From Rheinheimera sp. 4Y26 (GTDB taxonomy: Bacteria; Pseudomonadota; Gammaproteobacteria; Enterobacterales; Alteromonadaceae), in assembly GCF_025245835.1 (NCBI RefSeq), contig NZ_JAOBWS010000001.1:1-64000 (forward strand): DNA of 64,000 bases, in the 5' to 3' direction. Positions 3,001 through 19,979 of the stretch are shown piece by piece; position 1 is the stretch's first letter, and every line of letters starts with the position of its first letter. Below the pieces are notes generated by a model. The model saw only the letters and a list, made by a program, of their open reading frames with translations, was not told the DNA's origin and searched no databases. The translations under genes and the position numbers were made by a program.

Positions 3001-6000
3001 GAGGCTGTTGTTGTGGCGGTACGCGACCCTCAGCAAGAGCCAATACTGGTCGCTTATGTCGTGCCGGCAACACCTGCAGTAGCCGGCAATGAGCTCCACA
3101 AGGTGCTCAGCGACATGCTGCTGGCTGTTCTGCCCGCCTATATGGTGCCGGCCCTCTTTGTGCAATTGTCGGAGCTTCCGCTGACTGCCAACGGCAAAAT
3201 CGATCGAAAACAATTGCCGGCACCAGATTTTGGCACTTCGGCTGCTCCTTTTGTCGCGCCTGCAACAGCCCTGGAGCAGGTGATTGCGAAGTGCTGGCAG
3301 CATTGTCTGGGTCTGTCGCACATCGGTGTGCACGATAACTTTTTTGCCATGGGCGGGCATTCCATTATTGCGGTTCAGGTGGTCAGTCAGTTGGGCTTGC
3401 ATGGCATCCGGATCAGTCCGTTGCAACTTTTTGCACACCCCACTATAGCCGGGCTTGCAGCCAGTTTGCAGCTGCACAGTGATGCGCAGGAGAGCGAGTC
3501 TGTACCCGCAAATCTGCTGGATGCGAAGACTGAATCTGTGACACCGGAAATGTTGCCGCTGACCGACCTTTCTCAGCAGGATATTGACCAACTGCTCAGC
3601 CAGATCCCGGGTGGAGTGTCACGTATTCAGGATATCTATGACTTAGGACCGCTGCAGGAGGGGATTTTATTTCTGCATATCGCCAGTGAAACCGCCGATC
3701 CTTATTTACTGCAAACAACATTTACTTTGCCGGATCAGGCTGCTGTGAACCGGTTTATTGAGCATTTGCAGCTGGTGGTGGCACGGCATGATGTGCTCAG
3801 AACAGCGGTGTTCTGGCAAGGTCTGTCAAGACCGGTGCAGGTGGTCTTTCATGAGGCTGGAATTCCTGTGCAGTGGCATAGGTTGAGCGAAACACAAAAT
3901 CCGGAGCATTACACTGCAGCGCTGATGCAGCAGCCCTGCCGGATGACTTTAACCCAGGCCCCGTTACTGTCTTTGCACATTGTCAGTCAGCCTTCGGTTT
4001 CGCAATGCACCCTACTACTCAGGTACCATCATCTTGTGACCGATCAGATGGGGATCCGGCTGGTCTGTGAAGAATTACAGCTGCTGCAAAACGGCCAGGC
4101 TGAGCTGCTGCCAGCTGTCCGGCAGTATCGCGATTTTATAGCCTCTGTGCGTCAGTCTGCCAATCAGGATGCCGCCAGTCTGTTCTTCCGGCGCATGCTG
4201 GGTGATAAAGATAACGCCACTCTGGTGTTCAACATAAAAACGGATCCGGCGGGGCAGAGCGTACGGCAACAAATCAGCTTGGCAGACGAGCTGGCTGCCG
4301 GTTTGCGAAACAGTGCGGCCCTTTTGCATGTTAGCCCCGCAGTGCTGATGCACTGTGCCTGGGCACTAATGGTTGCAGCCTGTGCCGGTGACAAAGACGT
4401 TGTGTTTGGTACCGTGCTGTCCGGGCAGGTCCATCACAAACCTCAGGCGGGTCAGATGCTGGGGGTGCTGGTCAATACCCTGCCAATCCGGGTTAACACT
4501 GACGGCGTGACGGCCAGGTCATTGGTGCAACAGGTTGCATCCGGCTTGCAGCAGCTGCTGAACTATGTTCAGGTGCCGCTGGTGGTCGCGCAGCAGTCGA
4601 GTCCGATCGAAGCGCCTTTGCCTTTGTTTAACACTCTGCTCAATTACCGCCATACCGAAAAAACACAGGCTGCGGTCAGTGGTCAATTGCCTGAGCCGGT
4701 TGATGTCAGCCTGCACAGTCACTATCCGGTGGAATTGTCTGTTGATGACGATGGCCAGAGTTTTCAGCTGACATTACAAACCCACGCCGGATATCCGGCA
4801 GAGCGTTTGCTGGGTTACCTGCAACATGCACTGGCCGGGATGCTCGATGCATTGGCACAGCCAGAGGATAGGCCGGCCGTATTCTGTCTGTTGTCCGCAC
4901 AAGAGAAGGCACAACAGCAATTTATCTGGAACAACACCCGGTCTGATTATCCGCAGCAGCAATGTGTTCATCAGCTTTTTGCGGCGCGGGCCGCGTTGCA
5001 GCCGCAGCTGCCGGCTGTGATCTGCGATGGCGTGACGCTCAGCTACGCTGAACTGGATCGACGGGCCAATCAGCTTGCACATTATTTGCGCGAACAGTAT
5101 CAAGTCGCGCCGGAACAGCTGATTGGCTTGTGCCTTGAACGTTCTGAACTGGTGATTATCGCGATGCTGGCCGTGCTCAAAGCTGGAGCAGCCTACGTGC
5201 CGCTGGATGCAGCATACCCAAAACAACGTTTGTCTCGGATGCAGGAGGATGCCGGTTTAGCTGTGATTCTGGTGCAACAATCCACCAGCGACAGAACTCA
5301 GGCTGAGGTGCAACTGGTACTGGATGATCCTGAAGTACAGCGGGAACTTCAGAGTGCTCCATGCACTGATGTTGATGCACAAAAGCCGACAAGTTCAAAT
5401 CAGCTGGCTTATGTGATCTATACATCGGGCTCTACCGGTCGGCCAAAAGGGGTGATGATTGAGCATCGTAGTCTGACCAATCATGTAACTTATATCAGCC
5501 GGGAATATGGGCTTGGTGCCGGCGACCGCTGTCTGCAGTTGTCTTCGGTGAGTTTTGACAAGTCAGTCGAAGAAATATTTCCGACCTTATGCAGTGGGGC
5601 AACGCTGGTGATTTTTAAACAACAATTGTTCGAAAGTCCTCAGGCCTTTACGGCCATGTGCCGGCAGTATCAGGTTGATGTATTAAATCTTACACCGGCA
5701 TTTTTTCATGAATATGTGGTGCAGGCGTCTAATGGTGAATTGCAGGGGATCCGCCACATTAGTGTCGGCGGCGACAAGCTTAATAGCCAGGATATTCAGG
5801 ATTACTTCAACAAGCATCAGCAGCCACCACGATTATTAAATGTGTACGGACCAACGGAAGTCACGGTTGATGCCTGTTATACCGAGGTTGATCTGTTGTA
5901 TCCGAACAGTATTGGTAAACCGGTTGCCAATGCACAGTGTTATGTACTGGATGCGCAGTTACAACTGGTCCCGGTTGGGGTTATTGGCGAACTCTACATC

Positions 6001-9000
6001 GGTGGTGTGGGAGTGGCCCGTGGTTATCTGAACCGACCGGAACTTACAGCGGAGCGCTTTATTGCCAATCCTTTGGCAACAGGAAGCGGAGACAGGCTGT
6101 ATCGCACTGGCGACTTAGTCCGTTGGCTGGAACACGGTGCTATTGAGTATCTCGGCCGGGCCGATCATCAGGTGAAAGTGCGTGGTTTCCGGATTGAACC
6201 GGGGGAAATAGAAAGCTGCCTGATGGCGATGCCGCTTGTCGGGCAAGCGGTGGTTGTTGCCATCAGGGCACCGTCTGGTGGTCAGCAACTGGTGGCTTAT
6301 CTGACGGTTGCGTCCGAATATGCGCAGTTATCAACAGAGGTTGTGACGCAGCAAGCGCAGCGGCAGCTGGCTGCCAGCTTGCCGGAATATATGGTGCCGG
6401 AGCTGTTCATGGTATTGCCGGCTTTGCCGATCAACCCCAACGGAAAAATTGACCGGCATGCCTTACCACATCCGGACAGCATGCAATCTGTTCAGACGTT
6501 CGAAGCGCCGCAGACCGAAGGAGAAAGAGTTATTGCTGCGGTCTGGCAGGAGGTACTGTCGTTGCCGCAAGTCAGCCGGACCGATCATTTCTTCCGGCTG
6601 GGTGGTCACTCTTTATTATTGACCCGGGTGCTGGCGAGATTGCAGCAGGTCCTGCAAATCCATATCCCCCTGAAAACGTTATTTGAGTCGCCGGTGCTGT
6701 CAAAGCTGGCGGCGCAGCTCGACCAAATCACCAGAGTCAAAGCTCAGGTGAAGATCAATCACGTATCCCGCTCGCAGCGCCTGCCTTTGTCTTATGCGCA
6801 GCATCGCTTATGGATGCTCGATCAGATTGATGGGGGTGGCATTCACTACAATATGCCTGCGATATTCAGATTAAGCGGTCAGGTGGATAGTGATGCTCTG
6901 GAGTATGCCTTCAGTACTATTGTGCAGCGCCATGAAGCATTGCGGACTCTTTTTCTTTGTGATGACCAGGGAGAGGTGTATCAGCAACTGCAGCCGGCCA
7001 GCCAGTTCCGGGTGCAAAGTCTGGATATCTCTGCACAATCTGCAACAACAATCCCGGCGCACATCCAACAGCTGTTAGCGCAGCCATTTGTCTTAAGCCA
7101 GGATTATTTGCTGCGGGTACATCTGCTACACGACAGCGCGGAAAGTGCAGTGTTGCTGATCAATATGCACCACATTGCTGCTGATGGCCATTCCGTGGGC
7201 CTGCTGATGCATGAGTTGAGTCTGTTATACCGGGCAAAGCAGGCAGGTCTGGTGGCTGAGTTGCCTGAATTGCCGGTGCAATATGCTGACTACGCCTACT
7301 GGCAACGCCAATGGTTAAGTGGGGATGTGCTTGAACAGCAGTTGCAATACTGGGAGCAGCAACTCCATGGTCTGCCTCAGGTCCACCAACTGCCCATTGA
7401 CCGGCCCAGACCGCTTCAGCAAAGTTATGCTGGTGCTTCGTATTGTCATCAGATCCCGGCAGAGCTGACAGCGCGTCTGGCGGCTCTGTGTCACAGGCAC
7501 GATGCCACTTTATTTATGGGCATTCAGACATTGTTTGCCATTTTGCTGGCCCGCTTCAGCAATGAGCAGGATATTGTGATGGGAACGCCTGTGTCTAATC
7601 GGGAGCAGCCGGAACTTGAGCAACTTATCGGTTTCTTTGTCAATACGCTGGTACTGCGTAACGATCTCACCGGCAAGCCCGGATTCAGTTCACTGTTAGC
7701 ACAAAGCAAAGATATGCTGCTGGCAGCCTATGAGCATCAACACACACCATTTGAACTGGTCGTCGAGCGGTTAAAACCGGAAAGAACACAGAGTTACACG
7801 CCGTTGTTTCAAATCATGCTGGTATTTAATCCGGAAGTTCCGTCTGCTGTTGCATTGCCGGGGCTGCTCGCTGAAGCGCCGTATTATGCGACAACCACCG
7901 CAAAGTTTGACTTAACCTTACACGTGAACGAAGAAGCAGGTGCGCTGACGCTGAACTGGGAATTTAACACCGACCTGTTTAATCCGGAATCAGTGCAAAC
8001 AATGGCCCAGGCCTTTGAATGCTTACTGGACGGCATACTGGCAGAGCCTGAACTCAACGTGTATGCGATCAATATGCTGCCGCCGGCCTTGATGCAACAA
8101 GTGACTGTAGACTGGAATCGCAGCAAATGGCCGGGGCAGGCTGATCTTTGTATGCACGAGCTGTTTATGCAGCAACTGATAGCGGCGCCTGAGCACATTG
8201 CGACTATAGATGCTGCGGGTCATACACTGACTTATTTACAATTATACAGTCAGGTTGTGCAGCTGGCCGCGCAGTTACAGCCGCTGCTTCCTGCCAGTGC
8301 TGAGCCGCTGATTGCGATTCGGTTACCAAAGAGTCCGTTACAATTGGTGGCGGCATTGGCGGTTCAATATGTCGGGGCAGCCTATCTGCCGCTGGAAACT
8401 GATTGGCCCGCATCAAGATGTGAGCAAATCCTGCTTCAGGCCGATGTGCAGTTGCTGATCGCCACAAGCAGCCTGACCGCTTTGGCAACAGAAGGACTCC
8501 GTGTCTGTTATCCGCAGCCAGCAGTAGTGGAGCAGAGCCGGGCCGAACTTCTGGCGCAGGCCAGTGGTTATACGCCGTTACAAACCCCTGCATCACTGGC
8601 TTATGTCATCTTTACTTCAGGATCCACCGGCAAACCCAAGGGAGTGGCCATTGAACATGGTGCGGCGGTGAATACCTTGCTTGATATCAACCGGCAGTAC
8701 GGCGTGACTGCGGCGGATAAAGTGCTGGCGGTTTCTGCTTTCAGTTTTGACCTGTCGGTGTATGACTATTTTGGCATGCTGGCAGCAGGCGGCACTGTTG
8801 TGTTCCCGCAGCCGGAATTGGCGAAAAATCCGCAGCACTGGCTGGAACTCACTGAGCGTTTTGCTGTTTCTGTCTGGAACACAGTGCCGGTTTCGGCAGC
8901 GCTGTTGGTAGAGCAACTGGAAGAGCAAAGACGCAGTTCTGCTATTTGTTTTAAAGCGGTCATGATGAGTGGAGATTGGATTGATCCACAGCTACCGGCA

Positions 9001-10863
9001 AGGCTCTGGCAGTCATTTCCCGGTAGTCGGTTATACAGTCTTGGCGGGGCCACCGAGGGCTCTATCTGGTCTATTCATTACCCTATCGAACAGGATACCT
9101 CAGCTTTATCCAGTGTCCCTTATGGCCGGCCTATGTCAGGACAGTCATTCTTCATTTTAAATGACATGTTGCAACCTTGTCCGCCACAAGTTACAGGTGA
9201 GCTTTTTATCGGGGGGCTGGGTGTTGCCCGCGAATATTATCGTGACAGCGAGTTGACCGGGCGGCAGTTCTTGTGGCATCCGGAGTTAAAACAGCGACTG
9301 TACCGGACCGGAGATCTGGGCCGGTATCGCAGTGATGGCCTGATTGAATTCCGCGGCCGTCGGGATAACCAGGTCAAGATCCGTGGTTTTAGGGTGGAGC
9401 TGGGTGAGATAGAGCATACGCTGAAATCGCACCCGTTCATTGGTCAGGCTGTGGTTGATGTGCAGCAGACAGCTTCAGGTGACAAAGTGCTGGTTGCTTA
9501 TCTGGTGCTGCACAACGAACAGGTCATAGCGAGCCGGCTGGAATTTATCGAGCAATGCCGTGATTGGTTGCGCAGTGTCTTACCGCATTACATGGTGCCA
9601 CAGGCGTTCGAAATTCTGTCCGCTTTGCCTGTAACCGCGAATAACAAAGTTGACCGTAAAGCATTGCCAGCGCCGCAGTTGCAACATAGTGAACCCGAAA
9701 TGATCTTACCGGCAGACGCATTTGAGGCTTCGTTGTGTGCGATCTGGCGGCAGATTTTCGCCAATCCTCAGCTTGGCATGAAAGCCAATTTCTTTGACCT
9801 TGGCGGGCATTCGCTGCTCGCCACCAGGTTGATAGCGAAAGTGCGCAGTCAGTTAGGGTTGCAGGCCACACTGGGTGATGTGTTTTTGCATCCGCAGTTA
9901 CAGGAGTTTGCCAATCAGTTACGGCTGCGGGAACAGGAAAGTTTGACCAGTGAGTTGCCGGAAACCATGCTGCAACTGAGTACCACACCTGGTTCGGGAA
10001 CACTCTTCTGTTTTAATCCCGGAGCCGGCACAGCCCATTGTTATGGGCGTTTGGCTGCTGCGTTGTCCGGCCAGTATCAGTTGGTCGGCTTACATTCGCC
10101 GCTGATTTACGAACCGCAGTTTTTTGCTGATTTTAAGGCGCTGGTCAACCGTTATGTACAATTGATACTGCGATACCAGACTGAGGGGCCTGTCACTTTA
10201 CTGGGCTATTCGTCGGGTGGTGTCCTCGCTTATGAAGCGGCCTGCCAACTGGTTCAGCAGGGATATCAGGTCCGGGTTCTGCTGTTAGACAGCTACGCGA
10301 CTATGGCTGAATATGAAGTACCAAGCCAGGCCTGGTATGCCCCTATACAGTTGGCCTTGCAGGAAATTCTGCTGTTACAGCCGGAACTGGACTGGCATCA
10401 GCTGGATGCAACGGATGTTCCGGCAGCGCTGAGCTCTCTGAGCAAACAGCTGCGCCGGCAGTTTCCTGATCATTATATTGCACAGGTCAGCGAAGAAATG
10501 ACCTGTCGCTATTTGCAGCATTTTATCACGCTGGACAGGTTGAAAAGAGGCCACTGCATCCGCCAGTCAGCGCTGGATTTGGTGTTGTTCAGAGCTGAAC
10601 TGACGCCACCGGCCGATGGCTTTAATCAGAATCTGAACTGGGACTTGTACAGTAGTGGCAGTGTCAGAATTTTACCATTACAGCAATCGCATCAAACCAT
10701 GATTGAGTCTGCGGAACTGGCGATGTCTGTGGCTGAATATTTGCGACTGCCTGTGCCACATCAGGCTGACAGAGATGCCGCAAAGGGACAAAACAGCACT
10801 ACCCATCAGGGGCTGACCCCAGACTTATGCCATGCGGGAGGCGTCAATGAATACAGCGCCTGA
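1..10863 (+). CDS. Nonribosomal peptide synthetase, C-terminal modules with thioesterase (5' end outside window)
   Basis: The reading frame is open to the left edge, so this is the 3' part of a larger gene (about 3,620 residues visible). Domain order by approximate nucleotides: carrier protein (7-230), condensation (385-1650), adenylation (1735-3220), carrier (3250-3460), condensation (3620-4860), adenylation (4960-6480), carrier (6500-6720), condensation (6780-8080), adenylation (8150-9680), carrier (9720-9920), thioesterase (9990-10760). All four carriers keep GGHS with the phosphopantetheine serine. The thioesterase has GYSSGG and an LLLDSY aspartate, so the chain is released here. Specificity pockets read by alignment to GrsA are DILQLGMVWK (glycine-like), DKENSGVVDK (unassigned) and DLYNMSLIWK (cysteine-like). 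The third condensation domain has the normal HHxxxDG motif, so no heterocyclisation is expected. The first two have HHLVTDH and HHLVTDQ. No epimerase or methyltransferase domain is visible. The stop codon overlaps the next gene. The peptide product is unknown. Confidence 0.97.
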   Translation, partial: GFVAASTGTERRLCELWQQLLGVERVGVSDNFFALGGHSLLAVRLLGAMKAEFGQELALKTIFARPEIRQLALVLETTSPVRPLSVQPLDDLPSGSDVIVPQMLPWLALNQDQLDYICAQTPGGAGNIQNIYGLTPLQQGILFHHLSQPQDPYIIPILFSFADQATVAVFLRALEFVIARYDVLRTMFLWDQLPEPVQVVQRTATLAAHWQKFDNQAQAQAFLQQQLQRPDGLSLQSAPLMHAEITWVGAAQEHQVLLRFHHLVTDHVGLEVLAHEIALFLQAKHQQLAKPLQFSSFIGWLKQQSPTQAEQYFTAKLADFAEPSLPFGLRDIHLDGQGAVREHHLMPVAQSRLLRQLAAKHQVSPAALFHAAWSLVIASCSATTDVVFGSVLLGRTQHTDMATMVGTFINTLPVRVTLDDLSAAELIRQMQSQLNDLLQYEHTPLVQAKRCSAVPADMPLFSALLNFRHSSAEPAQQQAAEPALQLLTSTETSNYPFELTVDDLGSEFRLKLQLVPQINARQVMDYTLKALEHVLDALNTGSAALVGGMSLLSDAEVAEQIKCWGRPDGQHSLNAPVPALISQLAQLQPMAVALCCEKEQLSYQQLDYMAGHFAAYLRQSHKVQAGDFIAVKLERSIYLLPVLLGIWRAGAAYVPLDPLSPPERQQLILQDCQAKLGVSDSGIDQAGIGQIRLDDPEVLAVMHQSCAPEQSQSADADDQELPAYVLYTSGTTGVPKGVLLLQRNVRNFLAGMLAAPGLKSGDRLLAVTSISFDIHVLELFLPLLAGARLVIANTAQSRDARALRLLLQQHQITIMQATPASWKMLLADGWQPDAGFTSLCGGEALPQTLVDKLCHGGAVLWNMYGPTETCVWSACGRIQPAEPIHVGRPVTHTELYILSAKGQLLPAGVIGELWIGGQGVSPGYLNRPELSNKMFVAPVTPQIRQSSAGGKLFRTNDLARWLPDGRLQIMGRADQQLKIRGYRIEPGEIEYQLQQSELVTEAVVVAVRDPQQEPILVAYVVPATPAVAGNELHKVLSDMLLAVLPAYMVPALFVQLSELPLTANGKIDRKQLPAPDFGTSAAPFVAPATALEQVIAKCWQHCLGLSHIGVHDNFFAMGGHSIIAVQVVSQLGLHGIRISPLQLFAHPTIAGLAASLQLHSDAQESESVPANLLDAKTESVTPEMLPLTDLSQQDIDQLLSQIPGGVSRIQDIYDLGPLQEGILFLHIASETADPYLLQTTFTLPDQAAVNRFIEHLQLVVARHDVLRTAVFWQGLSRPVQVVFHEAGIPVQWHRLSETQNPEHYTAALMQQPCRMTLTQAPLLSLHIVSQPSVSQCTLLLRYHHLVTDQMGIRLVCEELQLLQNGQAELLPAVRQYRDFIASVRQSANQDAASLFFRRMLGDKDNATLVFNIKTDPAGQSVRQQISLADELAAGLRNSAALLHVSPAVLMHCAWALMVAACAGDKDVVFGTVLSGQVHHKPQAGQMLGVLVNTLPIRVNTDGVTARSLVQQVASGLQQLLNYVQVPLVVAQQSSPIEAPLPLFNTLLNYRHTEKTQAAVSGQLPEPVDVSLHSHYPVELSVDDDGQSFQLTLQTHAGYPAERLLGYLQHALAGMLDALAQPEDRPAVFCLLSAQEKAQQQFIWNNTRSDYPQQQCVHQLFAARAALQPQLPAVICDGVTLSYAELDRRANQLAHYLREQYQVAPEQLIGLCLERSELVIIAMLAVLKAGAAYVPLDAAYPKQRLSRMQEDAGLAVILVQQSTSDRTQAEVQLVLDDPEVQRELQSAPCTDVDAQKPTSSNQLAYVIYTSGSTGRPKGVMIEHRSLTNHVTYISREYGLGAGDRCLQLSSVSFDKSVEEIFPTLCSGATLVIFKQQLFESPQAFTAMCRQYQVDVLNLTPAFFHEYVVQASNGELQGIRHISVGGDKLNSQDIQDYFNKHQQPPRLLNVYGPTEVTVDACYTEVDLLYPNSIGKPVANAQCYVLDAQLQLVPVGVIGELYIGGVGVARGYLNRPELTAERFIANPLATGSGDRLYRTGDLVRWLEHGAIEYLGRADHQVKVRGFRIEPGEIESCLMAMPLVGQAVVVAIRAPSGGQQLVAYLTVASEYAQLSTEVVTQQAQRQLAASLPEYMVPELFMVLPALPINPNGKIDRHALPHPDSMQSVQTFEAPQTEGERVIAAVWQEVLSLPQVSRTDHFFRLGGHSLLLTRVLARLQQVLQIHIPLKTLFESPVLSKLAAQLDQITRVKAQVKINHVSRSQRLPLSYAQHRLWMLDQIDGGGIHYNMPAIFRLSGQVDSDALEYAFSTIVQRHEALRTLFLCDDQGEVYQQLQPASQFRVQSLDISAQSATTIPAHIQQLLAQPFVLSQDYLLRVHLLHDSAESAVLLINMHHIAADGHSVGLLMHELSLLYRAKQAGLVAELPELPVQYADYAYWQRQWLSGDVLEQQLQYWEQQLHGLPQVHQLPIDRPRPLQQSYAGASYCHQIPAELTARLAALCHRHDATLFMGIQTLFAILLARFSNEQDIVMGTPVSNREQPELEQLIGFFVNTLVLRNDLTGKPGFSSLLAQSKDMLLAAYEHQHTPFELVVERLKPERTQSYTPLFQIMLVFNPEVPSAVALPGLLAEAPYYATTTAKFDLTLHVNEEAGALTLNWEFNTDLFNPESVQTMAQAFECLLDGILAEPELNVYAINMLPPALMQQVTVDWNRSKWPGQADLCMHELFMQQLIAAPEHIATIDAAGHTLTYLQLYSQVVQLAAQLQPLLPASAEPLIAIRLPKSPLQLVAALAVQYVGAAYLPLETDWPASRCEQILLQADVQLLIATSSLTALATEGLRVCYPQPAVVEQSRAELLAQASGYTPLQTPASLAYVIFTSGSTGKPKGVAIEHGAAVNTLLDINRQYGVTAADKVLAVSAFSFDLSVYDYFGMLAAGGTVVFPQPELAKNPQHWLELTERFAVSVWNTVPVSAALLVEQLEEQRRSSAICFKAVMMSGDWIDPQLPARLWQSFPGSRLYSLGGATEGSIWSIHYPIEQDTSALSSVPYGRPMSGQSFFILNDMLQPCPPQVTGELFIGGLGVAREYYRDSELTGRQFLWHPELKQRLYRTGDLGRYRSDGLIEFRGRRDNQVKIRGFRVELGEIEHTLKSHPFIGQAVVDVQQTASGDKVLVAYLVLHNEQVIASRLEFIEQCRDWLRSVLPHYMVPQAFEILSALPVTANNKVDRKALPAPQLQHSEPEMILPADAFEASLCAIWRQIFANPQLGMKANFFDLGGHSLLATRLIAKVRSQLGLQATLGDVFLHPQLQEFANQLRLREQESLTSELPETMLQLSTTPGSGTLFCFNPGAGTAHCYGRLAAALSGQYQLVGLHSPLIYEPQFFADFKALVNRYVQLILRYQTEGPVTLLGYSSGGVLAYEAACQLVQQGYQVRVLLLDSYATMAEYEVPSQAWYAPIQLALQEILLLQPELDWHQLDATDVPAALSSLSKQLRRQFPDHYIAQVSEEMTCRYLQHFITLDRLKRGHCIRQSALDLVLFRAELTPPADGFNQNLNWDLYSSGSVRILPLQQSHQTMIESAELAMSVAEYLRLPVPHQADRDAAKGQNSTTHQGLTPDLCHAGGVNEYSA

Positions 10864-12718
10864 GCAACTGGATTTTGATATTCAGGGTTATATACGGGAG
10901 GCATTAATGCATGGCCGTAATCATGTATCCGCGCACTGGCGGGAAAAAATTTCGGCGCTGATTGCCCCTTTCCGGCTTGATCCGCGGCAACCCGATTTTA
11001 GCCCGGACTGTGGTCTCTGGGAGCGGTTTTTATGGTGTGAAAACTTCACAGCTCTGGGAGAAAAACACAATTATGCTTCATACACTTATTCACCGGTTTT
11101 TGATTGTTATCTTGATGCCGGCACCGATGGAGATTTTTGGAGAAAGAATAAAAATGTATGGTATGCTCTGGCAGCGTTGGTTAACGATTGGTTTATTTAT
11201 GAAATGGAATTATTCAACAAATACACCGAAAACGGTTACACCAAAAAGGGATATAGGCCCGAGCTTGTCGCTGACAGACTGCAACTGTTAAAAGAGCTGA
11301 AACAAAGCCTGATGGAAACGGACAATTCGTTTTCCGTCCATCGTGACCAGGGGTTTCCTGACCATGGCTATCCGCATGATATTGAGTATTTCCGTGATGT
11401 TGATGCAGCATTAACGACTTTAGTCATGCTGACGGGGCTTCCCGGTGGTATTTATCATGATGAATATATGTTTCTGCGCATGGTGCAACTCACGGAATGT
11501 ATCTTTTTTGCGGTCGGAGAAGGTGTTCACGACGGATTAGCGTTTTATCAGCAGGGAGAACAGCAAAGGGCTGCTGATATCTTCCGGCAACTGACGGTGC
11601 TGATGGATGTACTCAGCCGTTTGTTCAGTGTGATGGATACTCTGGCTGTGGAAAACTTTTATCAGGGTTTTCGGGTAGATACCGGTAATGCCGGTGCTAT
11701 TCAGTCGGAAAAGTATCAATGGCTGGAGCGTCTCCTGACCGGTATTCAACCGGACAAACTGGGCGTTGTGCTGCAGATAGCAGAACTGAGGGACAAGTCC
11801 AGGCTAAAAGACACTGCCATGCCGACTTTAAGGCAACTCTATCAGACCATGCTGAACTGCCGGGATTGTCCTGAACTGGCATTTTTCAGTCAGCGTCTGT
11901 TGCATCAATTCCAGTTCTGGAAAGCCAGACACCTGGCGATTGCAATAAAAATGTTGCCTAAAAACTTCGGCGCCGAAGGTCCGCTGGGAATCGGTTATCT
12001 GAAATCGAATTTAAGGAACAATATGACTGAAATGCGGCGTCATAGCAGAGAAGTACCGGAGGTTCGGTTATCCACAAGGGCTTGCCAGCTATTTGAGGGA
12101 CTGACTCTGGTTTGGATACAGTGTACCGATGTTGACCTGCAGAAACTTCAGCTCGCTTTACAAATCAATACCGAAGATATCCGCCAGTCGATGCTGGAAC
12201 ATGCCGATCTGATAGAGCATAACCTTGATGATTATCAGCGGTTTTTCAGCAGTAAACAGGCTGCTTTTCCATTACGCAAACAGATGCAGCACGGTTTACC
12301 TGCACCAACAGTTCCTTTGGTTCCGCGTCTGTTACTGCATCTTGAGTTCTACCGCGGTGTGCTGGCGGGGGTGTTTGATATCGACCGGATTGATGGTGAT
12401 GTGTTAGTCGATGTCAGTATCGAAGCTGAGGTTTACAGTGGTATCGGCAAATCCCGTCAGGTGATCTGTCAGGCCAATGAATTGGTGTTGCGCGATCAGG
12501 CAGGAGTAATGGCCTCGTATTTTTCTGGTCCGGGCGGCCGCACAGCCATGGCAGCTGATGGTCCTGTGGCCGGACGGCGCCTCGGTCTGATGTTATTTTC
12601 ATCACCGGCTATGGCACCTGGCAGCCTTGAGGACACCATCACTTTGATTAACAAATTGTTTTCAGCAGCAGCCGGTACAGTTGACCTGAGTTATTTACGG
12701 TTTCAACCAGGGCCATAA
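10847..12718 (+). CDS. Fusion of a tryptophan dioxygenase/PrnB-like heme domain and a B3/B4 domain
   Basis: The start is ATG 10847, five bases after GGGAGG (10836-10841); it overlaps the end of the synthetase by 17 bp, so the two are translationally coupled. An in-frame ATG at 10832 lacks such a site. About 623 residues. Residues 180-400 resemble the tryptophan 2,3-dioxygenase/PrnB superfamily: YHDEYMF near 203 matches the distal-histidine segment, FWKARH near 357 the proximal heme histidine, and GAEGPLGIGYLKS near 375 the altered GTGGSSG loop. Residues 450-615 match stand-alone B3/B4 domains (a helix-rich lead, then FDIDRIDGDV near 510, SGIG near 531, RDQAGVM near 549). B3/B4 is the editing fold of PheRS beta. 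Inference: the heme half oxidises an aromatic amino acid for the peptide, and the B3/B4 half acts on aminoacyl-tRNA or a related ester. The N-terminal 180 residues are not assigned. The fold call is good; the reaction is unknown. Confidence 0.8.
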   Translation: MNTAPEQLDFDIQGYIREALMHGRNHVSAHWREKISALIAPFRLDPRQPDFSPDCGLWERFLWCENFTALGEKHNYASYTYSPVFDCYLDAGTDGDFWRKNKNVWYALAALVNDWFIYEMELFNKYTENGYTKKGYRPELVADRLQLLKELKQSLMETDNSFSVHRDQGFPDHGYPHDIEYFRDVDAALTTLVMLTGLPGGIYHDEYMFLRMVQLTECIFFAVGEGVHDGLAFYQQGEQQRAADIFRQLTVLMDVLSRLFSVMDTLAVENFYQGFRVDTGNAGAIQSEKYQWLERLLTGIQPDKLGVVLQIAELRDKSRLKDTAMPTLRQLYQTMLNCRDCPELAFFSQRLLHQFQFWKARHLAIAIKMLPKNFGAEGPLGIGYLKSNLRNNMTEMRRHSREVPEVRLSTRACQLFEGLTLVWIQCTDVDLQKLQLALQINTEDIRQSMLEHADLIEHNLDDYQRFFSSKQAAFPLRKQMQHGLPAPTVPLVPRLLLHLEFYRGVLAGVFDIDRIDGDVLVDVSIEAEVYSGIGKSRQVICQANELVLRDQAGVMASYFSGPGGRTAMAADGPVAGRRLGLMLFSSPAMAPGSLEDTITLINKLFSAAAGTVDLSYLRFQPGP

Positions 12719-12794: not shown

Positions 12795-14048
12795 GTGGAT
12801 ATAAAAAAGCAGGTTGTAACCAAAGATAAAAGTGTACCGGTCAAGTGGGGGCTGGGGCTGCTGCTGATACTTGGTCTCTGGATGCTTTACGCCAGACTGA
12901 CCAGTCAGGAAATCAGTCTGGAACGTAAAAGCCTGGTGATTGCCGAAGTGCGCCAGGGCGATTTAGAGGTTTCGGTCGACGGTTTTGGTGTTGTCAGATC
13001 AGACGATATCAGACTGTTAACAGCACCAAGTAATTCTATTGTGAAAGAGATACTGGTGAAGCCCGGAGCCCGGGTGCAGGCCGGAGATGTGATTGCCCGT
13101 CTGGAAAACCCTGATGTAAGACAAGAGCTGCAAAATGCCCGGCAGGAACTGTCAAAAGTACAGGCAGATTTACGGCAAACCATCGCTGATCATGAGTTGG
13201 CGATGCTCAACGAAGCGACTGAAGTTTCTGATACTCAGGCAAATTACGAAAAAATCTCTTATATCGTTCAAGCCGAGTCTTCACTGGTGGAAAAGGGAAT
13301 TATTTCCAAAGTGACCCATGTCGAAAGCCAGGTTGAAGCAGAACGTTTGAAAGCAAAACTGGTGTTTTTACGGGAGAAGCATGAAAGGCTTAAGCGAATT
13401 CACGCAGAGATGATCAGTATCAAAACTGATTTGGTCCGGCAGCAGGAAGGTACAGTGAAACTGATTGAACACAAAGTCGATCAGTTGGAGATTAAGGCGG
13501 AGCTGACAGGTATGTTGCTGAAATCAGCCATTGGTTTGGGACAGAGCCTGGTGATAGGACAAGAGGTTGCCACTATTGGCAGTGAGGGTTCGCTGGAAGC
13601 CTTTATAAAGATCCCACAGGATAAAGCGCAGCGGATTCAAATTGGACAAAAGGCGGTGATTAATAACCGCCAGGATCAGATTGAAGGGGTAGTCAGCCGG
13701 ATCGATCCTGTGGTTGTCGATAACACGGTTGAACTGGAAATTGACCTACCCGGAGAATTACCGCTGAGTCTGAAAGCGGAGCAGAATGTTGAAAGCAGAA
13801 TCATTATCGGCAGTTTGGCTGATGCTATGTATATTGAACGCCCTGCCAAAAGTACAGAAAACACGATGCTGAAATTGTTCAGGATTGATGAAGATGATTC
13901 TAAAAAAGCGGAATTAGTGCAACTGGCAATGGGCGAAACCGCGAACCAATATATTGAAATTAAATCCGGAACCAAGGTTGGACAAAAGTTTATTATTTCC
14001 GATTTGTCAAACCTGATGACTTCTGAAAATAGTATCGTGCTTGAATAA
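12795..14048 (+). CDS. HlyD/MacA-family periplasmic adaptor of an ABC exporter
   Basis: This is a 417-residue membrane-fusion protein. It starts at GTG 12795, preceded by AGAAAGG; the ATG two bases upstream is in another frame and stops at once. A single N-terminal membrane anchor lies at about residues 16-36. It is followed by a lipoyl-like half (residues about 70-105), a long charged coiled coil (about 110-230), and the returning lipoyl and beta-barrel segments. MacA-type adaptors bridge an inner-membrane MacB-type transporter to an outer-membrane TolC channel; no TolC gene is in the window. It lies 76 bp after the heme/B3-B4 gene and directly before the ATPase and permease, so it is probably in the synthetase operon and serves export of the peptide. 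The substrate assignment is inference from position. Confidence 0.9.
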   Translation: MDIKKQVVTKDKSVPVKWGLGLLLILGLWMLYARLTSQEISLERKSLVIAEVRQGDLEVSVDGFGVVRSDDIRLLTAPSNSIVKEILVKPGARVQAGDVIARLENPDVRQELQNARQELSKVQADLRQTIADHELAMLNEATEVSDTQANYEKISYIVQAESSLVEKGIISKVTHVESQVEAERLKAKLVFLREKHERLKRIHAEMISIKTDLVRQQEGTVKLIEHKVDQLEIKAELTGMLLKSAIGLGQSLVIGQEVATIGSEGSLEAFIKIPQDKAQRIQIGQKAVINNRQDQIEGVVSRIDPVVVDNTVELEIDLPGELPLSLKAEQNVESRIIIGSLADAMYIERPAKSTENTMLKLFRIDEDDSKKAELVQLAMGETANQYIEIKSGTKVGQKFIISDLSNLMTSENSIVLE

Positions 14049-14074
14049 ATATTATAAATTGAACAGGGTGATTT

Positions 14075-14755
<681 letters not shown>

Positions 14756-14764
14756 AGGATATGT

Positions 14765-17206
14765 ATGAATAACTTACGTTATCTGATCAAAAGATCCGTT
14801 CAGGCGGCGTTGGCTGACAAGTCTTTTTTTGCCGGTGTTGTAGTCACTATGGGTATCACTATTGGTGTGTTTCTTGTTGTACTGACTTTGGGATTCTACA
14901 TGCTGTTAAAGCCCTTAAGTTATCCGCAGCAGGACGAGCTTTTTGTGGTGGATTACCAGCGGATAAATCAGAGTGGTGAGGCCGAAACCTCATTTTTTCT
15001 TTACCCTGCAGCAGAAGCTTTGTATCGTAATATTCAGAGTGCCAAAGATATCGGTGTCAAAGCGCAGTCTATGCTGTTTTTTTCCAAAGAAGTCCTGACC
15101 TCAGAACCTCTGCAACCTAACCTTGCGACCGTTTATACCACGGCAAGCACTGCGGATATCCTGGGGATACCTATGGCAAAAGGGCAATGGTTTCCGCCTG
15201 CAGAACTCGGGCAACGTGTGCCTGGTGCGGTGATCTCTTACCAGGTATGGGCAGAGCAATTTAGTTTAAGGGAAGACATTCTTGGCCAGAAACTGGTTGT
15301 GAATGGGGTCAGTCATCCGGTGATTGGCGTTATTCAGGCAGACTTCGTTGCCCCACAACTTGCCGAAGTGGGCCTGACGACACAACTGTGGTTGCCCTGG
15401 GACTTTAATAATTCTGAATACAAAGAAGACTGGCGAAATGTTGAAGGTAAGTTGTTTTATCTGATCAAAACGCCAGCGGCCAGTACCGGCCAGCTCAGTG
15501 TTGTGCTCAGTGCTATGGCTAATGAAATGTTTCGCAAAATGACCATTGATAATCAGCACTTTGTCGGCTGGTCTGCCGATATTGAAGTCACGCCATTACG
15601 GTCAAAGTTAGTGGCCGGTAATATGACCACAGTGATATTTTTGCTGGCGGGTGGCTTAGGATTGCTGTTGATTGCGACCAGTAATATCACCAATCTTTTT
15701 ATTTCGCGGGTGGTGTCAAAACATAAACAACTGGCGATTTCGGCAACTCTGGGAGCGAAGAAAAAGCATTTGTGGTTACAAATGTTCAGTGAAACCTTAG
15801 TGTTAATGCTGGCATCCAGTGCTGTTGCGGTTTTGATAGCTTTATTGGGCTTTGGCTTGATCCAGCGGTTTTTCAGCACTCAGCTGGCCCGCGCGCATGA
15901 GATATCCTTTGACTGGATGACCCTATGTTCGGCATTGTTGGTCGCAGTTGTGCTGGCTTTTATTATTTCATTATTGTCGATCCGTATTGTGAATTACCGG
16001 CAGCTCAGCCAGTCGCTGAAAAGCAGTGGTAAAGGTGTGGGCGTACAAATTTCGTCCGGAGTCCGGAATGCGTTGCTGGTTTCGCAGATTTCTGTTGCTG
16101 TGGTGCTGATTTTCTGCAGTGCCAGCCTGATTAAAAACGCGGCCACAACCCTGCAACGGCATGTCGGCTTCGACAGCACAAATGTGTTACGGCTGGAATT
16201 CAGAATCGCCACTCTGGATTGGCAGGGTTGGGATACCTATGCGCCTAAAGTAACGGAATTTCGTGACAAACTCGCCGCATTGCCAGAGGTTGAGGCAGTG
16301 ACCTTCGCCCGCTCACCACTGGAAGATATTTATCAGTTTGCGCTGACTTACAGTGGAGATGGCAAGCGTTATTACCCCTTCCATCGTAATGTCGACCACA
16401 ATTATCTGGATGTTGTTGGCCAACGCCTGCTGGCGGGCCAGGGTTTTGCGTTAAAGGATGTGCAAAGCCGCACCAATGTTGCAATGGTCAGCGCTACTTT
16501 TGCAGAGCAATTGGGACAGGGCGACATTACCAGTGTCATCGGGAAAACCCTGGCAATCGATTCTATACCCCCCGCCACCATTATCGGCGTTGTTGAAGAT
16601 CTGGTTGTGCCATCAAAAGCCGAAATTCCGCCACGGTTTTATGTTCCGAACGGTGGTTCGGCATTGTGGCTGATGCTGAAGCTGAAACCAGGCACTGTAG
16701 TTACAAGGGAACAAGTGACGGCTCTCATGCGTGATACAAACAACCAGTTTGCGCTGACGAATTTTTCTTCATTACAGGCTGATGTGGACAGGGCTAATTT
16801 TACGCATCTGGTCACGCTGACCGTTGCGGGAAGTCTTGCCATATTTACCTTGTTGCTGGCCTTTCTGGGCTTGTTCGGCATCATTAGCTATGGTGTTAAA
16901 TCACGTACAACGGAATTTAATATTAAAATGGCTATTGGAGCGAAATATAACAACATCTTTAATGAAACCGTGCGGGAAAATATCTCAATACTGATGATTG
17001 GCGCTTCTTTAGGTACTATCTTTATTATTACCTGTCTGTATTTTTACTACGACTTATTGAGTGTTTATATCTCAATTAGTTCTATGTATATGTATGCCAT
17101 AACGATAGTTGCTGTATTCGCTGTTCTGATTTTGTCGAGCTCTATTTCGATGAGAACAATTAAAAAGAACAGTATCGTCAATGGCCTGAAGGGGATTGCT
17201 GCATAA
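14765..17206 (+). CDS. MacB-like ABC permease with duplicated FtsX/MacB-PCD halves
   Basis: The protein has 813 residues and about eight predicted membrane helices: one near 20-46, three between 290 and 410, one near 435-455, and three between 685 and 800. Two large extracytoplasmic regions (about 50-285 and 460-680) correspond to two MacB-type periplasmic domains, so this is the duplicated FtsX permease type rather than the four-helix MacB. An SD-like AAAGGA precedes the ATG at 14765. It is the last gene of the synthetase-exporter operon, since a strong terminator follows 10 bp after the stop. The transport substrate is not known from sequence. Confidence 0.93.
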   Translation: MNNLRYLIKRSVQAALADKSFFAGVVVTMGITIGVFLVVLTLGFYMLLKPLSYPQQDELFVVDYQRINQSGEAETSFFLYPAAEALYRNIQSAKDIGVKAQSMLFFSKEVLTSEPLQPNLATVYTTASTADILGIPMAKGQWFPPAELGQRVPGAVISYQVWAEQFSLREDILGQKLVVNGVSHPVIGVIQADFVAPQLAEVGLTTQLWLPWDFNNSEYKEDWRNVEGKLFYLIKTPAASTGQLSVVLSAMANEMFRKMTIDNQHFVGWSADIEVTPLRSKLVAGNMTTVIFLLAGGLGLLLIATSNITNLFISRVVSKHKQLAISATLGAKKKHLWLQMFSETLVLMLASSAVAVLIALLGFGLIQRFFSTQLARAHEISFDWMTLCSALLVAVVLAFIISLLSIRIVNYRQLSQSLKSSGKGVGVQISSGVRNALLVSQISVAVVLIFCSASLIKNAATTLQRHVGFDSTNVLRLEFRIATLDWQGWDTYAPKVTEFRDKLAALPEVEAVTFARSPLEDIYQFALTYSGDGKRYYPFHRNVDHNYLDVVGQRLLAGQGFALKDVQSRTNVAMVSATFAEQLGQGDITSVIGKTLAIDSIPPATIIGVVEDLVVPSKAEIPPRFYVPNGGSALWLMLKLKPGTVVTREQVTALMRDTNNQFALTNFSSLQADVDRANFTHLVTLTVAGSLAIFTLLLAFLGLFGIISYGVKSRTTEFNIKMAIGAKYNNIFNETVRENISILMIGASLGTIFIITCLYFYYDLLSVYISISSMYMYAITIVAVFAVLILSSSISMRTIKKNSIVNGLKGIAA

Positions 17207-17247: not shown

Positions 17248-17308
17248 ATTTATGTATATTCCTGAGATTGATTTGTACTGGGTACGATATAGTCAGTTCA
17301 GCGGGTGG

Positions 17309-18295
17309 ATGTATGAAATGAAAATGAAAAACAATCTGTTTCCTGTAACAGTCAACGATATCAAACAACTATTCTGGACAGGAAATGGCGAAACAGAAAT
17401 TGAATGTACGATTTCTGAGCTTTCTGAACGTCAGTTTGTTGTAAAAACAGAAGCAAAGCTGCCACAACCCGGTTCGCAGGGGATCTTCTGGCGCCCTTTC
17501 TTTCCTATTTTTTCTGCGTCTGTCATCGATGTGGGTGAAGGAATGTTTATTGCTGAACTCGGAGCATTAGATGAGGCAGCCAGGAAAATGCTGGAGACAC
17601 TGCTTGCAGCGCAACAAGGCCAGCAGATCCCTAGTCGTCACAGACCTGGTTTATTGTTCCGGATTATTCTAAAAGCTTTATTTAATCTTGAACAAAGTTT
17701 ACCGCAAATCCACAGGCGGACGTTTTTGCCAGCTGAATTTCCCTGGAGTTTAGCCTTTGAGAAAGAATGGCCAGCCATCTGTAACGAAGTCAGAAATATC
17801 TTTGATCACGTTGATGTCAGTGAAATTCCACTCGGGCCGGACAAACTTGCGAACTGGCATTCGGTGCTGGTTGCAGAAAAAGGTCAGGCCACGGTGCAGG
17901 CCAAAAAGCTGCTGCCCTGTACCGCAAGACTGGTTGAGTCTGTCCCCTCTATGCTGAACGCGGACCTGAGTATTCTCAGGCCCGGCACTGTCATTGGTTA
18001 CCATAAGGCAAATTCGCGTACTTTTTTGCGAATGCACCTGGGGATTATCATTCCAACAGGAGACGTCTGCTTGCAGCTCGAAGATCAAAAGCTCAGTTGG
18101 GAGAATGGTAAGGTAATGATTTTCGACGATTTTTACCCACACTCCGCATGGAATAAGACTGATGAAACCCGGGTGATTCTGATGGTTGATTTCCTTCGTC
18201 CTATGCCTGGCTGGAAAGAAGCATTTATCCGCTTTTTACACCGCAAAACGGCCAGTCCTTTGCCAAATGTGCCAGCCAAATGGTTAGACTGGTGA
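17309..18295 (+). CDS. Aspartyl/asparaginyl beta-hydroxylase family dioxygenase
   Basis: The C-terminal half carries the family core: RMHLGIIIP with an iron-ligand histidine, WENGKVMIFDD followed by HSAWN with the second histidine, and TRVILMVDFLRP with the 2-oxoglutarate-binding arginine. These proteins hydroxylate Asp/Asn side chains or lipid A acyl chains (LpxO branch). The N-terminal 140 residues are not recognised. The frame is open from 17252, but that ATG abuts a terminator. A promoter-like TTGATT...GATATA lies at about 17267-17291, so I prefer ATG 17309 or 17318, the latter 9 bp after GGTGG. Inference: it is a tailoring enzyme for the nonribosomal peptide, supported only by location. 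It is one of two unrelated iron oxygenases at this end of the cluster. Confidence 0.85.
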   Translation: MYEMKMKNNLFPVTVNDIKQLFWTGNGETEIECTISELSERQFVVKTEAKLPQPGSQGIFWRPFFPIFSASVIDVGEGMFIAELGALDEAARKMLETLLAAQQGQQIPSRHRPGLLFRIILKALFNLEQSLPQIHRRTFLPAEFPWSLAFEKEWPAICNEVRNIFDHVDVSEIPLGPDKLANWHSVLVAEKGQATVQAKKLLPCTARLVESVPSMLNADLSILRPGTVIGYHKANSRTFLRMHLGIIIPTGDVCLQLEDQKLSWENGKVMIFDDFYPHSAWNKTDETRVILMVDFLRPMPGWKEAFIRFLHRKTASPLPNVPAKWLDW

Positions 18296-18926: not shown

Positions 18927-19979
18927 TCACAATTCTGCTGCAAAGCTTGCCATATCACCAAAGCACACTAATAACTGGCGTTCTCCCTGATAAGGGTTTC
19001 TGGCATGTGCTTTGAGCCTGTTGTCCAGCAGCAGCAGGTCGCCTGCCTGCCATTGAAATGCAAACTGATGTTGCCGGTAGACATCAAGAATGTGTGCCAT
19101 GTAGCTGTCAGGGATTGGGCTACCGTCTGCAAAATAACAGTTGCGAGGGTATTCATCAGCATGGCTGCACAGCTTTTGTAAAGTGTGTTGTAGCTCAGGG
19201 GCCAGGCAGGAAAAATGCCAGTGCTGGGCCTGGTTAATCCAGCACATATCGCCAGTTTCCCTGACCTGATATACGGCAGGTCTGTCTGCCAAAGTAATTA
19301 AACTGTCATCCGCCGACCAGCGATATTGCATACCTTCGCGCAAACAGATGGATTCGATAACATGCTTGCTGCTGGTATTAAAAATGGTTTTCCAACCCAG
19401 CCCGATGCCATTCTCCGCCTGGTAACGTCTGCAGTAACGGACCCCTTTGTGTTCGAACTCCTCCCGCACCTGCTTGTCCAGTTGCTGGTATATTTCACGG
19501 CTGTCGGCCACCGGGGTCTCACCGCCCACTTTGGCGGCAGTGTGACAGGCAAAAATTGCTTTGGTTGGCCAACGCTGGTTGAAGGTATTTTCATTGTGCC
19601 AAAGCAGGAAACTATTACTGGCATATCCAACAGGTTGTTGCACAAAAGTGCTGCCAACAAGCGGCGTATGTTCGGTATTTTCACGAAAAACAGAAGTCAT
19701 AAAATGGTTCGCGAATTGTTCAACCGCAGCGATATTTCCCAGATTAAACCCACGAAATAATATGCCGCCTCTGATCGACAATTGCTTTAACCAATAATCC
19801 TTTTCAGCAAAAATAGTTTCAACACTGACTGAACTATCGTTGGCTTCGACTTTATACAAACTATAAGGATGATTAGAAAATGAAGAGACACTATATTTTT
19901 TCAGCCCGCCATGCCCGGGACTGGCATTTTCTTTTGTGATTTGTCCTGCTAAGACATCTAGATCTAGTTTGTGCAGCAT
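18927..19979 (-). CDS. SyrP/TauD-family 2-oxoglutarate-dependent oxygenase
   Basis: The protein has 350 residues, a typical TauD/TfdA length. The iron facial triad is visible as WHNE (HxE variant, near residue 127) and LKAHARNPY (distal histidine near 325), followed by the 2-oxoglutarate arginine in GERQLL. HNE in place of HxD is a feature of the SyrP branch, which beta-hydroxylates amino acids during nonribosomal peptide assembly. It is convergent with the b561 gene and has its own AT-rich upstream region, so it is not in the synthetase operon. Role inferred: hydroxylation of a carrier-bound residue or of the released peptide. The start ATG 19979 is the first Met in frame; no strong SD is obvious. 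Confidence 0.88.
   Translation of the reverse strand: MLHKLDLDVLAGQITKENASPGHGGLKKYSVSSFSNHPYSLYKVEANDSSVSVETIFAEKDYWLKQLSIRGGILFRGFNLGNIAAVEQFANHFMTSVFRENTEHTPLVGSTFVQQPVGYASNSFLLWHNENTFNQRWPTKAIFACHTAAKVGGETPVADSREIYQQLDKQVREEFEHKGVRYCRRYQAENGIGLGWKTIFNTSSKHVIESICLREGMQYRWSADDSLITLADRPAVYQVRETGDMCWINQAQHWHFSCLAPELQHTLQKLCSHADEYPRNCYFADGSPIPDSYMAHILDVYRQHQFAFQWQAGDLLLLDNRLKAHARNPYQGERQLLVCFGDMASFAAEL

Follow-up and report, generated by a model that had tools for sequence, protein, structure and literature searches.

A TDO-like domain fused to a putative, remote B3/4-like domain in Rheinheimera and Paraburkholderia, and its possible connection to tRNA-Trp

In Rheinheimera sp. 4Y26, the end of an NRPS gene is overlapped by a gene that encodes, in a single chain, one half resembling tryptophan dioxygenase (TDO) and another half with remote similarity to the B3/B4 editing domain of PheRS. 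Which amino acid, and which tRNA if any, would such a protein act upon, and does it serve the neighboring synthetase? We analyzed this gene within the window, the whole stretch of 64,000 nucleotides at the start of contig NZ_JAOBWS010000001.1, and compared it with its relatives in other genomes.

The fusion gene and its relatives

The features of the locus are as follows.

7..10863, plus strand: NRPS with three condensation domains, three adenylation domains and a thioesterase, truncated at the start of the contig
10832..11428, plus strand: N-terminal helical extension, residues 1-199
10836..10841, plus strand: GGGAGG, Shine-Dalgarno-like, read in the sequence
10847..12718, plus strand: TDO-like heme domain / B3/4-like domain fusion protein, with the ORF open from ATG 10832
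11429..12016, plus strand: TDO-fold core, residues 200-395 (profile, PDB and Foldseek matches)
11483..11485, plus strand: Val218, column of the TDO distal His55 (alignment)
11672..11674, plus strand: Arg281, at the position of the carboxylate-binding Arg of TDO/MarE (alignment)
11930..11932, plus strand: His367, column of the proximal heme ligand (alignment)
12272..12670, plus strand: putative B3/4-like domain, about residues 481-613 (profile matches)
12795..17206, plus strand: three-gene export system (HlyD-type adaptor, ABC ATPase, MacB-like permease)
17252..18295, plus strand: Asp/Arg beta-hydroxylase-like protein
18927..19979, minus strand: TauD/TfdA-family dioxygenase

The reading frame at 10832-12718 is single and uninterrupted (628 aa), and the fusion of the two halves in one chain is real, as the preliminary description had reported. 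The ATG at 10847 (623 aa) is a more likely translation start than the ATG at 10832, because GGGAGG is located 5 nt before it, and the NRPS stop at 10863 lies inside the gene. Constraint is apparent on both halves in a comparison of the window with locus L030, where dN/dS values of 0.05 and 0.08 are based on small counts.

The search for the same architecture elsewhere, proposed in the preliminary description, was successful: a second Rheinheimera assembly encodes the fusion with 98% identity, and Paraburkholderia elongata possesses a full-length ortholog with 30% identity. The fusion is therefore conserved between Rheinheimera and Paraburkholderia. It is rare and sporadically distributed. Searches of viral and phage collections gave no match, and the plasmid collections yielded no full-length match, only four rows (one record twice) covering at most 33% of the query. 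Of two weak matches from the first family search, the one in G070 was dropped as a chance hit with a stop codon within the matched region, and the one in G020 proved to be a stand-alone B3/4 protein. A match to the fusion profile in G1365 (model positions 62-197), whose frame looks hemerythrin-like by eye, was also dropped. No description of a TDO-like and B3/4 pairing was found in the open-access literature, a weak negative given that subscription papers mostly fell outside this search.

The TDO-like half

The N-terminal half belongs to the TDO superfamily, in agreement with its original assignment. It matches TIGR03036 with an E-value of 1.4e-8 (34.5 bits, and 40.6 bits for the P. elongata fusion, both under the equivalog cut-off of 390.7), PF03301 with an E-value of 2.1e-5, and TDOs in the PDB with E-values of 2e-8 to 6e-8. 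In Foldseek, the full predicted model matched TDO with a probability of 1.0, bacterial TDOs showing TMt values of 0.50-0.58; the best E-value was 0.0025, none reached 0.001, and the matches listed were solely TDO, PrnB and IDO chains.

Both heme histidines had been reported for this half, and only the proximal one stood up. The His367 column, which we take to correspond to His240 of XcTDO, is occupied by His in 15/15 sequences of one alignment and in 36/36 of another. The column of the distal His55 contains Val218 in the window; the three fusions have Val, Val and Ile at this position, the 13 aligned unfused TDO-like relatives invariably have Leu, and all 12 canonical and all eight small TDOs have His. 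A conserved His209-Asp-Glu of the fusion does not correspond to XcTDO His55. The fusion points to a group of TDO-like proteins in which the distal histidine is absent. TDO-like relatives without a B3/4 domain were found by the search at 13 other loci, or 14 together with L004; one of these 14, L039, missed by the motif filter, is absent from alignment A4 and from the tree. Arg281, in a column that presumably holds the substrate-carboxylate Arg of TDO, is conserved in 3/3 fusions and 13/13 aligned unfused proteins, which suits a free amino-acid carboxylate as substrate.

The fusion shares with TDO the fold, the proximal His, Phe214, the carboxylate Arg and the QS..Y..E motif, whereas it differs by Val/Ile in place of the distal His, by scores far under the TIGR03036 cut-off and by a long N-terminal extension; an extension of similar length is carried by most of the unfused relatives. 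Of the His-ligated heme in a TDO/IDO fold that characterizes the heme-dependent aromatic oxygenase superfamily, the fold and the His column are present, and the N-terminal half may bind heme. The equivalent Arg of MarE binds the substrate carboxylate, according to the available text of PMC11904535. Similar to the fusion, MarE, PrnB, SfmD and TyrH are TDO/IDO-like heme enzymes in natural-product clusters, but MarE retains His55, and a B3/4 domain is described for none of the four in the available parts of the sources (PMC11791213, PMC11904535).

The B3/4-like half

In both the window fusion and the P. elongata fusion, the C-terminal half matches PF03483 over the same stretch of the profile, with E-values of 0.0057 and 0.0015, respectively. 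The scores on the fusions (14.6-18.6 bits) are all under the gathering score of 29.3, which counts against the B3/4 reading. The best PDB match of a C-half profile was the canavanyl-tRNA deacylase CtdA (9f7e; E-value 0.01). For the C-half, hhalign gave P-values of 4e-6 against three PheT sequences and 9e-8 against a stand-alone B3/4 protein, and the latter and the fusion recovered each other in reciprocal phmmer searches of a small database of fetched ORFs. A profile of two fusions matched, at model positions 504-596, six frames of 749-807 aa, and all three that were fetched proved to be PheT. From these sequence-profile similarities, on which its fold assignment is based, the C-half appears to be a remote B3/4-like domain. 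The superfamily named in the preliminary description is thus retained, whereas its term 'complete' applies loosely, as the Pfam match spans positions 47/50-101 of 174 and the CtdA match 78-212 of 231.

Could the C-half instead be an unrelated alpha/beta domain? Besides the PF03483 scores under gathering, this alternative is favored by a PDB search started from the P. elongata C-half as a single sequence, which retrieved no B3/4 chain (the best hit, at E-value 1.7, was an epoxide hydrolase), and by the best 50 of 416 Foldseek matches to the full model, where no B3/4 chain occurred. Structure prediction, which supported the TDO fold of the heme half, gave only a low-confidence model of the C-half (block mean pLDDT 31-60). 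We nevertheless consider an unrelated domain very unlikely, since two diverged fusions match PF03483 at identical profile positions and the profile matches to CtdA and PheT and the reciprocal phmmer matches point the other way.

The editing His of the PheRS motif P(M/L)HxFD is replaced by Gly in 3/3 fusions, in both stand-alone proteins and in CtdA, whereas all seven aligned PheT proteins have His. In five Trp-linked proteins, no Glu occurs at either candidate column of the LES motif, the register of which is uncertain by two residues. The C-half therefore resembles the PheRS beta-subunit editing domain by profile similarity to PheT, but it lacks the editing His and the other parts of PheRS, and its genomic links are to Trp. 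The initial model of a PheRS-type activity on tRNA-Phe is not supported, given this Gly and the links to a TrpRS gene and trpBAF described below. CtdA, as presented in the available text of PMC10018355, shares with the fusion the B3/4 lineage, the Gly replacing the editing His and a genomic link to the metabolism of one amino acid. In contrast to the fusion, whose C-half is joined to a heme-oxygenase-like half, is Trp-gene-linked and appears to lack the CtdA 'LES' Glu, CtdA is a stand-alone protein acting on canavanine on tRNA-Arg. By this kinship, the C-half may deacylate a tRNA.

Tryptophan genes, the NRPS and possible functions

In P. elongata, the next gene, 49 nt downstream of the fusion, encodes a TrpRS (TrpRS2) that scores 165.9 bits, just below the cut-off of 176.75, while another TrpRS elsewhere in the genome scores 271.8 bits. 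By sequence, TrpRS2 is a second, divergent TrpRS, retaining HLGN and KMSKS. There was no sign that it is of the indolmycin-resistant type: it keeps what we take to be Trp-site residues, namely the 'ADYHA' His, 'LLMSADIL' and 'DQKQH'. The stand-alone B3/4 protein has a strong match in two of 275 family genomes, its source genome included, and in both trpB-trpA-trpF directly follow its gene; these could be the sole trpBAF copies of those organisms. Because of TrpRS2 next to the P. elongata fusion and trpBAF after the stand-alone B3/4 genes, the target of the fusion is likely tRNA-Trp rather than tRNA-Phe.

We tentatively favor, as a quite possible explanation, a self-contained tryptophan-analogue module. 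The heme half, with its TDO fold and proximal His but no distal His, would bind or oxidize tryptophan in its free form or an amino acid derived from it; TrpRS would mischarge tRNA-Trp with the Trp-derived amino acid, and the B3/4 half would hydrolyze it from tRNA-Trp, by analogy with CtdA and canavanine on tRNA-Arg. The second TrpRS encoded beside the module in P. elongata would fit this scheme. Counting against it, a TrpRS adjoins the fusion in one genome only, and the relatives at the 13 other loci lack B3/4. The idea of self-protection through the B3/4 domain, already in the preliminary description, survives in general form, having a precedent in CtdA (PMC10018355, available text), the same protein that the C-half profile matches best in the PDB.

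The preliminary description also suggested that the heme half supplies a residue of the NRPS peptide. The B3/4 fold would then be repurposed for binding or hydrolysis of an aminoacyl thioester on a carrier protein, or serve as a scaffold, with no tRNA involved. TDO itself supplies kynurenine for daptomycin. The overlap with the NRPS stop and the position just before the export genes agree with such tailoring, as does the location of the only TrpRS over cut-off in the Rheinheimera genome on another contig. However, the P. elongata ortholog has both domains and an adjacent TrpRS, and since the fusion is the longest ORF listed on its 26.9-kb contig, no multi-domain NRPS is encoded there; moreover, the CtdA and PheRS relatives work on tRNA. 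We regard tailoring as unlikely, and a link of the fusion to the NRPS product is unsupported. The cluster contigs contain nine readable A domains. Judged by eye, four of these resemble domains for Gly, Cys, Asn and Ser, and the other five were unassignable; none of the nine gave an aromatic code.

A tRNA-dependent oxygenase would combine both halves differently: TrpRS charges tRNA-Trp, the B3/4 half holds Trp-tRNA, the heme half oxidizes the esterified Trp, and hydrolysis frees the product. The TrpRS2 adjoining the fusion, the two domains in one chain and the unusual heme pocket without a distal His are consistent with this scheme, and natural-product pathways are known to use aminoacyl-tRNA (PMC12945691, available text). 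The conserved carboxylate-binding Arg, however, fits a free amino acid and not an ester. This scheme is quite improbable, and equally so in the form of a dedicated TrpRS with an oxygenase whose product enters the NRPS pathway in Rheinheimera.

The least probable explanation is a weapon, immunity or stress device, with the heme half as a Trp-depleting or Trp-sensing unit, the B3/4 half stripping Trp-tRNA to stop translation and TrpRS2 as the antidote. It is compatible with the adjacency of TrpRS2, the sporadic distribution and the case of IDO1 and TrpRS in human cells treated with interferon, a loose parallel (PMC11346423, available text), but the Rheinheimera fusion overlaps an NRPS gene with no adjacent TrpRS in the window, and searches of phages and viral contigs gave no match.

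TrpRS is, to our knowledge, not counted among the synthetases with an editing function. Returning to the tryptophan-analogue module, the fusion and the B3/4-trpBAF clusters are candidates for a tRNA-Trp proofreading factor and for protection of a producer against its own tryptophan analogue; proofreading that guards tRNA-Trp, if true, would be out of the ordinary. No more than half of the tRNA synthetases have a known editing function, and few specific editing factors of the stand-alone type have been described (PMC10018355, available text). On the Rheinheimera side, the assembly apparently lacks a repeated A-T unit between contigs C33, C14, C21 and C11. A second TauD/TfdA-family dioxygenase is encoded on contig C14, and the true TDO of this genome on contig C31.

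The fusion gene and its distribution

The window spans the first 64 kb of contig C11 of a 4.08-Mb genome, and the fusion ORF in it follows a nonribosomal peptide synthetase (NRPS) gene, with which it overlaps, as the preliminary description had noted for the synthetase stop.

7-10863: NRPS with three condensation domains, three adenylation domains and a thioesterase, overlapping the fusion gene
10832-12718 (+): fusion ORF, 628 aa
12795-17206: HlyD/ABC/MacB-like export set, downstream of the fusion

Residues are counted from 10832; an in-frame ATG at 10847, located 5 nt past GGGAGG, is the likelier start, and numbers in this shorter form are lower by 5. The export genes show distant similarity to DarC/DarD/DarB (darobactin export), with scores below the cut-offs.

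The same two-domain architecture, which had been proposed for a search in other clusters, does occur elsewhere. When 84,980 species were scanned by a pattern-based method, which can miss diverged copies, 15 loci were returned, and full-length fusions are those of the window, of Rheinheimera UBA8519 (locus L030, 98% identity) and of Paraburkholderia elongata (locus L031, 30%). Matches of any kind were found in 3 of 147 genomes of the family, 4 of 369 of the class, 3 of 394 of the order and, with a profile built from two full-length fusions, 31 of 398 of the phylum; in these overlapping samples, each of which includes the window's own genome, only that genome carries the fusion. It was not found in the four other same-genus genomes of the family sample, and P. 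elongata gave the sole match among 398 genomes of its own family. Between the window and L030 (58 differences in all), dN/dS is 0.10 overall, with 0.30 for residues 1-200, 0.05 for 201-400 and 0.08 for 401-628.

The heme half

The window fusion is matched by TIGR03036 of NCBIfam (E 1.4e-8; 34.5 bits, cut-off 390.7) and, below gathering, by PF03301 of Pfam (E 2.1e-5), whose gathering threshold the P. elongata ortholog passes with 38.8 bits. An AlphaFold2 model built from 15 input sequences has a mean pLDDT of 60.7, with ten-residue blocks at 61-92 within residues 191-310 and 331-380. Foldseek ranked tryptophan dioxygenase (TDO) first for this model (prob 1.0, best E 0.0025), followed by PrnB, human TDO and IDO1, with no match at E 0.001 or better.

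Both heme histidines had been claimed for this half, of which the proximal one stands and the distal one does not. In an alignment of 36 TDO-fold cores, the proximal His is present in all, whereas the distal-His column holds V, V and I in the three fusions, Leu in all 13 unfused TDO-like proteins aligned, and His in all eight small and all 12 canonical TDOs. The column aligned to Val218 varies among the H55A, H55S and wild-type XcTDO chains of the PDB, and therefore the His of the conserved His209-Asp-Glu stretch does not take the distal position. The carboxylate-site Arg is kept in 35 of the 36 cores, the exception being one small TDO with Lys. MarE retains both His55 and the carboxylate Arg (PMC11904535).

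A FastTree tree of the 36 cores, with a canonical TDO as root, places the fusions in a single clade (support 0.965) and the canonical and small TDOs in a second one (0.998); the unfused TDO-like proteins, separated from both (0.973), are the sister clade of the fusions. A trio made up of a small TDO with the distal His, a PLP enzyme of class V and a TDO-like protein with distal Leu recurs at L004, L033, L037, L038, L041 and L042, with L039 (left out of the alignment) and L043 as additional loci of this group. Among the 14 unfused TDO-like loci, a small TDO is encoded at eight and a PLP enzyme at six; the Micromonospora stretch also encodes nitric oxide synthase together with a globin.

The B3/4-like half and tryptophan genes

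PF03483 matches the C-halves of the window and P. elongata fusions, below gathering, at profile positions 50-101 (E 0.0057) and 47-101 (E 0.0015) of 174, respectively. Against the PDB, a profile of all three C-halves has as its best chain the canavanyl-tRNA(Arg) deacylase CtdA (9f7e; E 0.01 over 78-212 of 231), followed by splicing-factor chains (E 0.25 and 0.58); with the stand-alone protein described below added, CtdA is again first (E 0.036), followed by PheRS beta (0.16 and 0.18). No B3/4 chain was among the PDB matches when the P. elongata C-half was used as a single-sequence query. By hhalign, the C-half aligns to the three PheT proteins described next (P 4e-6) and to the stand-alone protein of locus L029 (P 9e-8). 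In the phylum genomes, the only full-length match of the two-fusion profile was the window's own; its positions 504-596 matched six other frames of 749-807 aa, and all three of those fetched are PheT (TIGR00472). That the C-half is something other than a B3/4 domain is improbable in our view.

The column of the PheRS editing His has His in all seven PheT aligned, and Gly in all three fusions, both stand-alone relatives and CtdA. For the PheRS Glu, the register is uncertain by two residues, and at both candidate columns Glu is absent in all five Trp-linked proteins.

The stand-alone protein, recovered with the fusion C-half, matches PF03483 at E 3e-20. Used as a query, it gave some match in 199 of 275 genomes of the window's family, and strong, nearly full-length ones in two: G020, from which the protein itself comes (E 4e-153), and G124 (E 1e-47), where the identity is 43%. 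Among the matches listed, the remaining ones lie in frames of 794-1005 aa, a length close to that of PheT. In both genomes, which belong to two genera, trpB, trpA and trpF lie directly downstream.

L029:8345-11696: stand-alone B3/4 gene, then trpB-trpA-trpF
L085:6497-9782: the same arrangement

By eye, DegT- and Gfo/Idh-like genes occur in both stretches, and that of G124 also holds trpC and a trpD-like gene. The two stretches are candidates for a Trp-analogue cluster with built-in tRNA proofreading. An EamA exporter is encoded nearby in L029.

In P. elongata, a TrpRS with HLGN and KMSKS motifs (TrpRS2) is encoded 49 nt downstream of the fusion; against TIGR00233 it scores 165.9 bits and so narrowly misses the cut-off of 176.75, and another TrpRS of that genome scores 271.8. 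A Trp-deprivation device with TrpRS2 as its antidote seems very improbable. The genome of the window has one TrpRS over the cut-off and a true TDO separate from the fusion. No multi-domain NRPS was seen in the 26.9-kb P. elongata contig that carries the fusion, since the longest ORF listed there is the fusion itself. A function that involves no tRNA, which we regard as unlikely, would suit the position of the fusion gene beside the NRPS in the window but not its setting in P. elongata. The toxic small RNA of Betaproteobacteria RF02278 (Rfam) was found at L031:6283-6342, ~0.9 kb past the TrpRS2 gene.

A precedent is CtdA, which works as a stand-alone B3/4 protein in the deacylation of canavanyl-tRNA(Arg) and whose gene adjoins canavanine-degradation genes (PMC10018355). 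Here, B3/4-like domains are linked to tryptophan-metabolism enzymes and to a TrpRS, and this would be the CtdA principle applied to tryptophan, with an oxygenase joined to the domain in the fusion. Since it retains the carboxylate Arg, the heme half would act on a free amino acid; the B3/4 half would then clear the resulting or a related analogue off tRNA-Trp. We favor this reading tentatively. The boldest alternative, oxidation of the residue while on the tRNA, is clearly unlikely. We found no description of the TDO-like and B3/4 pairing in an open-access library, a weak negative given that the name 'B3/4' is not searchable.

The NRPS cluster

Pieces of the NRPS cluster are spread over contigs C33, C14, C21 and C11, an order inferred from repeated end sequences. 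The cluster is broken at identical repeats, and one repeated A-T unit seems absent from the assembly. Contig C33 encodes SbnA and SbnB (2,3-diaminopropionate), an ABC exporter of the cyclic-peptide type that scores above the TIGR01194 cut-off, and an acylase with distant similarity to PvdQ (49 bits, cut-off 950), which together hint at maturation of an acylated peptide. Adenylation domains were called by eye from specificity codes, which assigned four of the nine readable domains; domains 1 and 3 of the window presumably activate Gly and Cys, and domain 2 gave no assignment. Three further genes lie in or next to the cluster.

L020:12934-13917: TauD-family dioxygenase
18927-19979 (-) of the window: TauD-family dioxygenase
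17252-18295 of the window: Asp/Arg hydroxylase-like protein

Inside the cluster, L020:3478-4917 encodes a 480-aa protein with a weak likeness to circularly permuted ATP-grasp proteins (PF14403, E 0.037).
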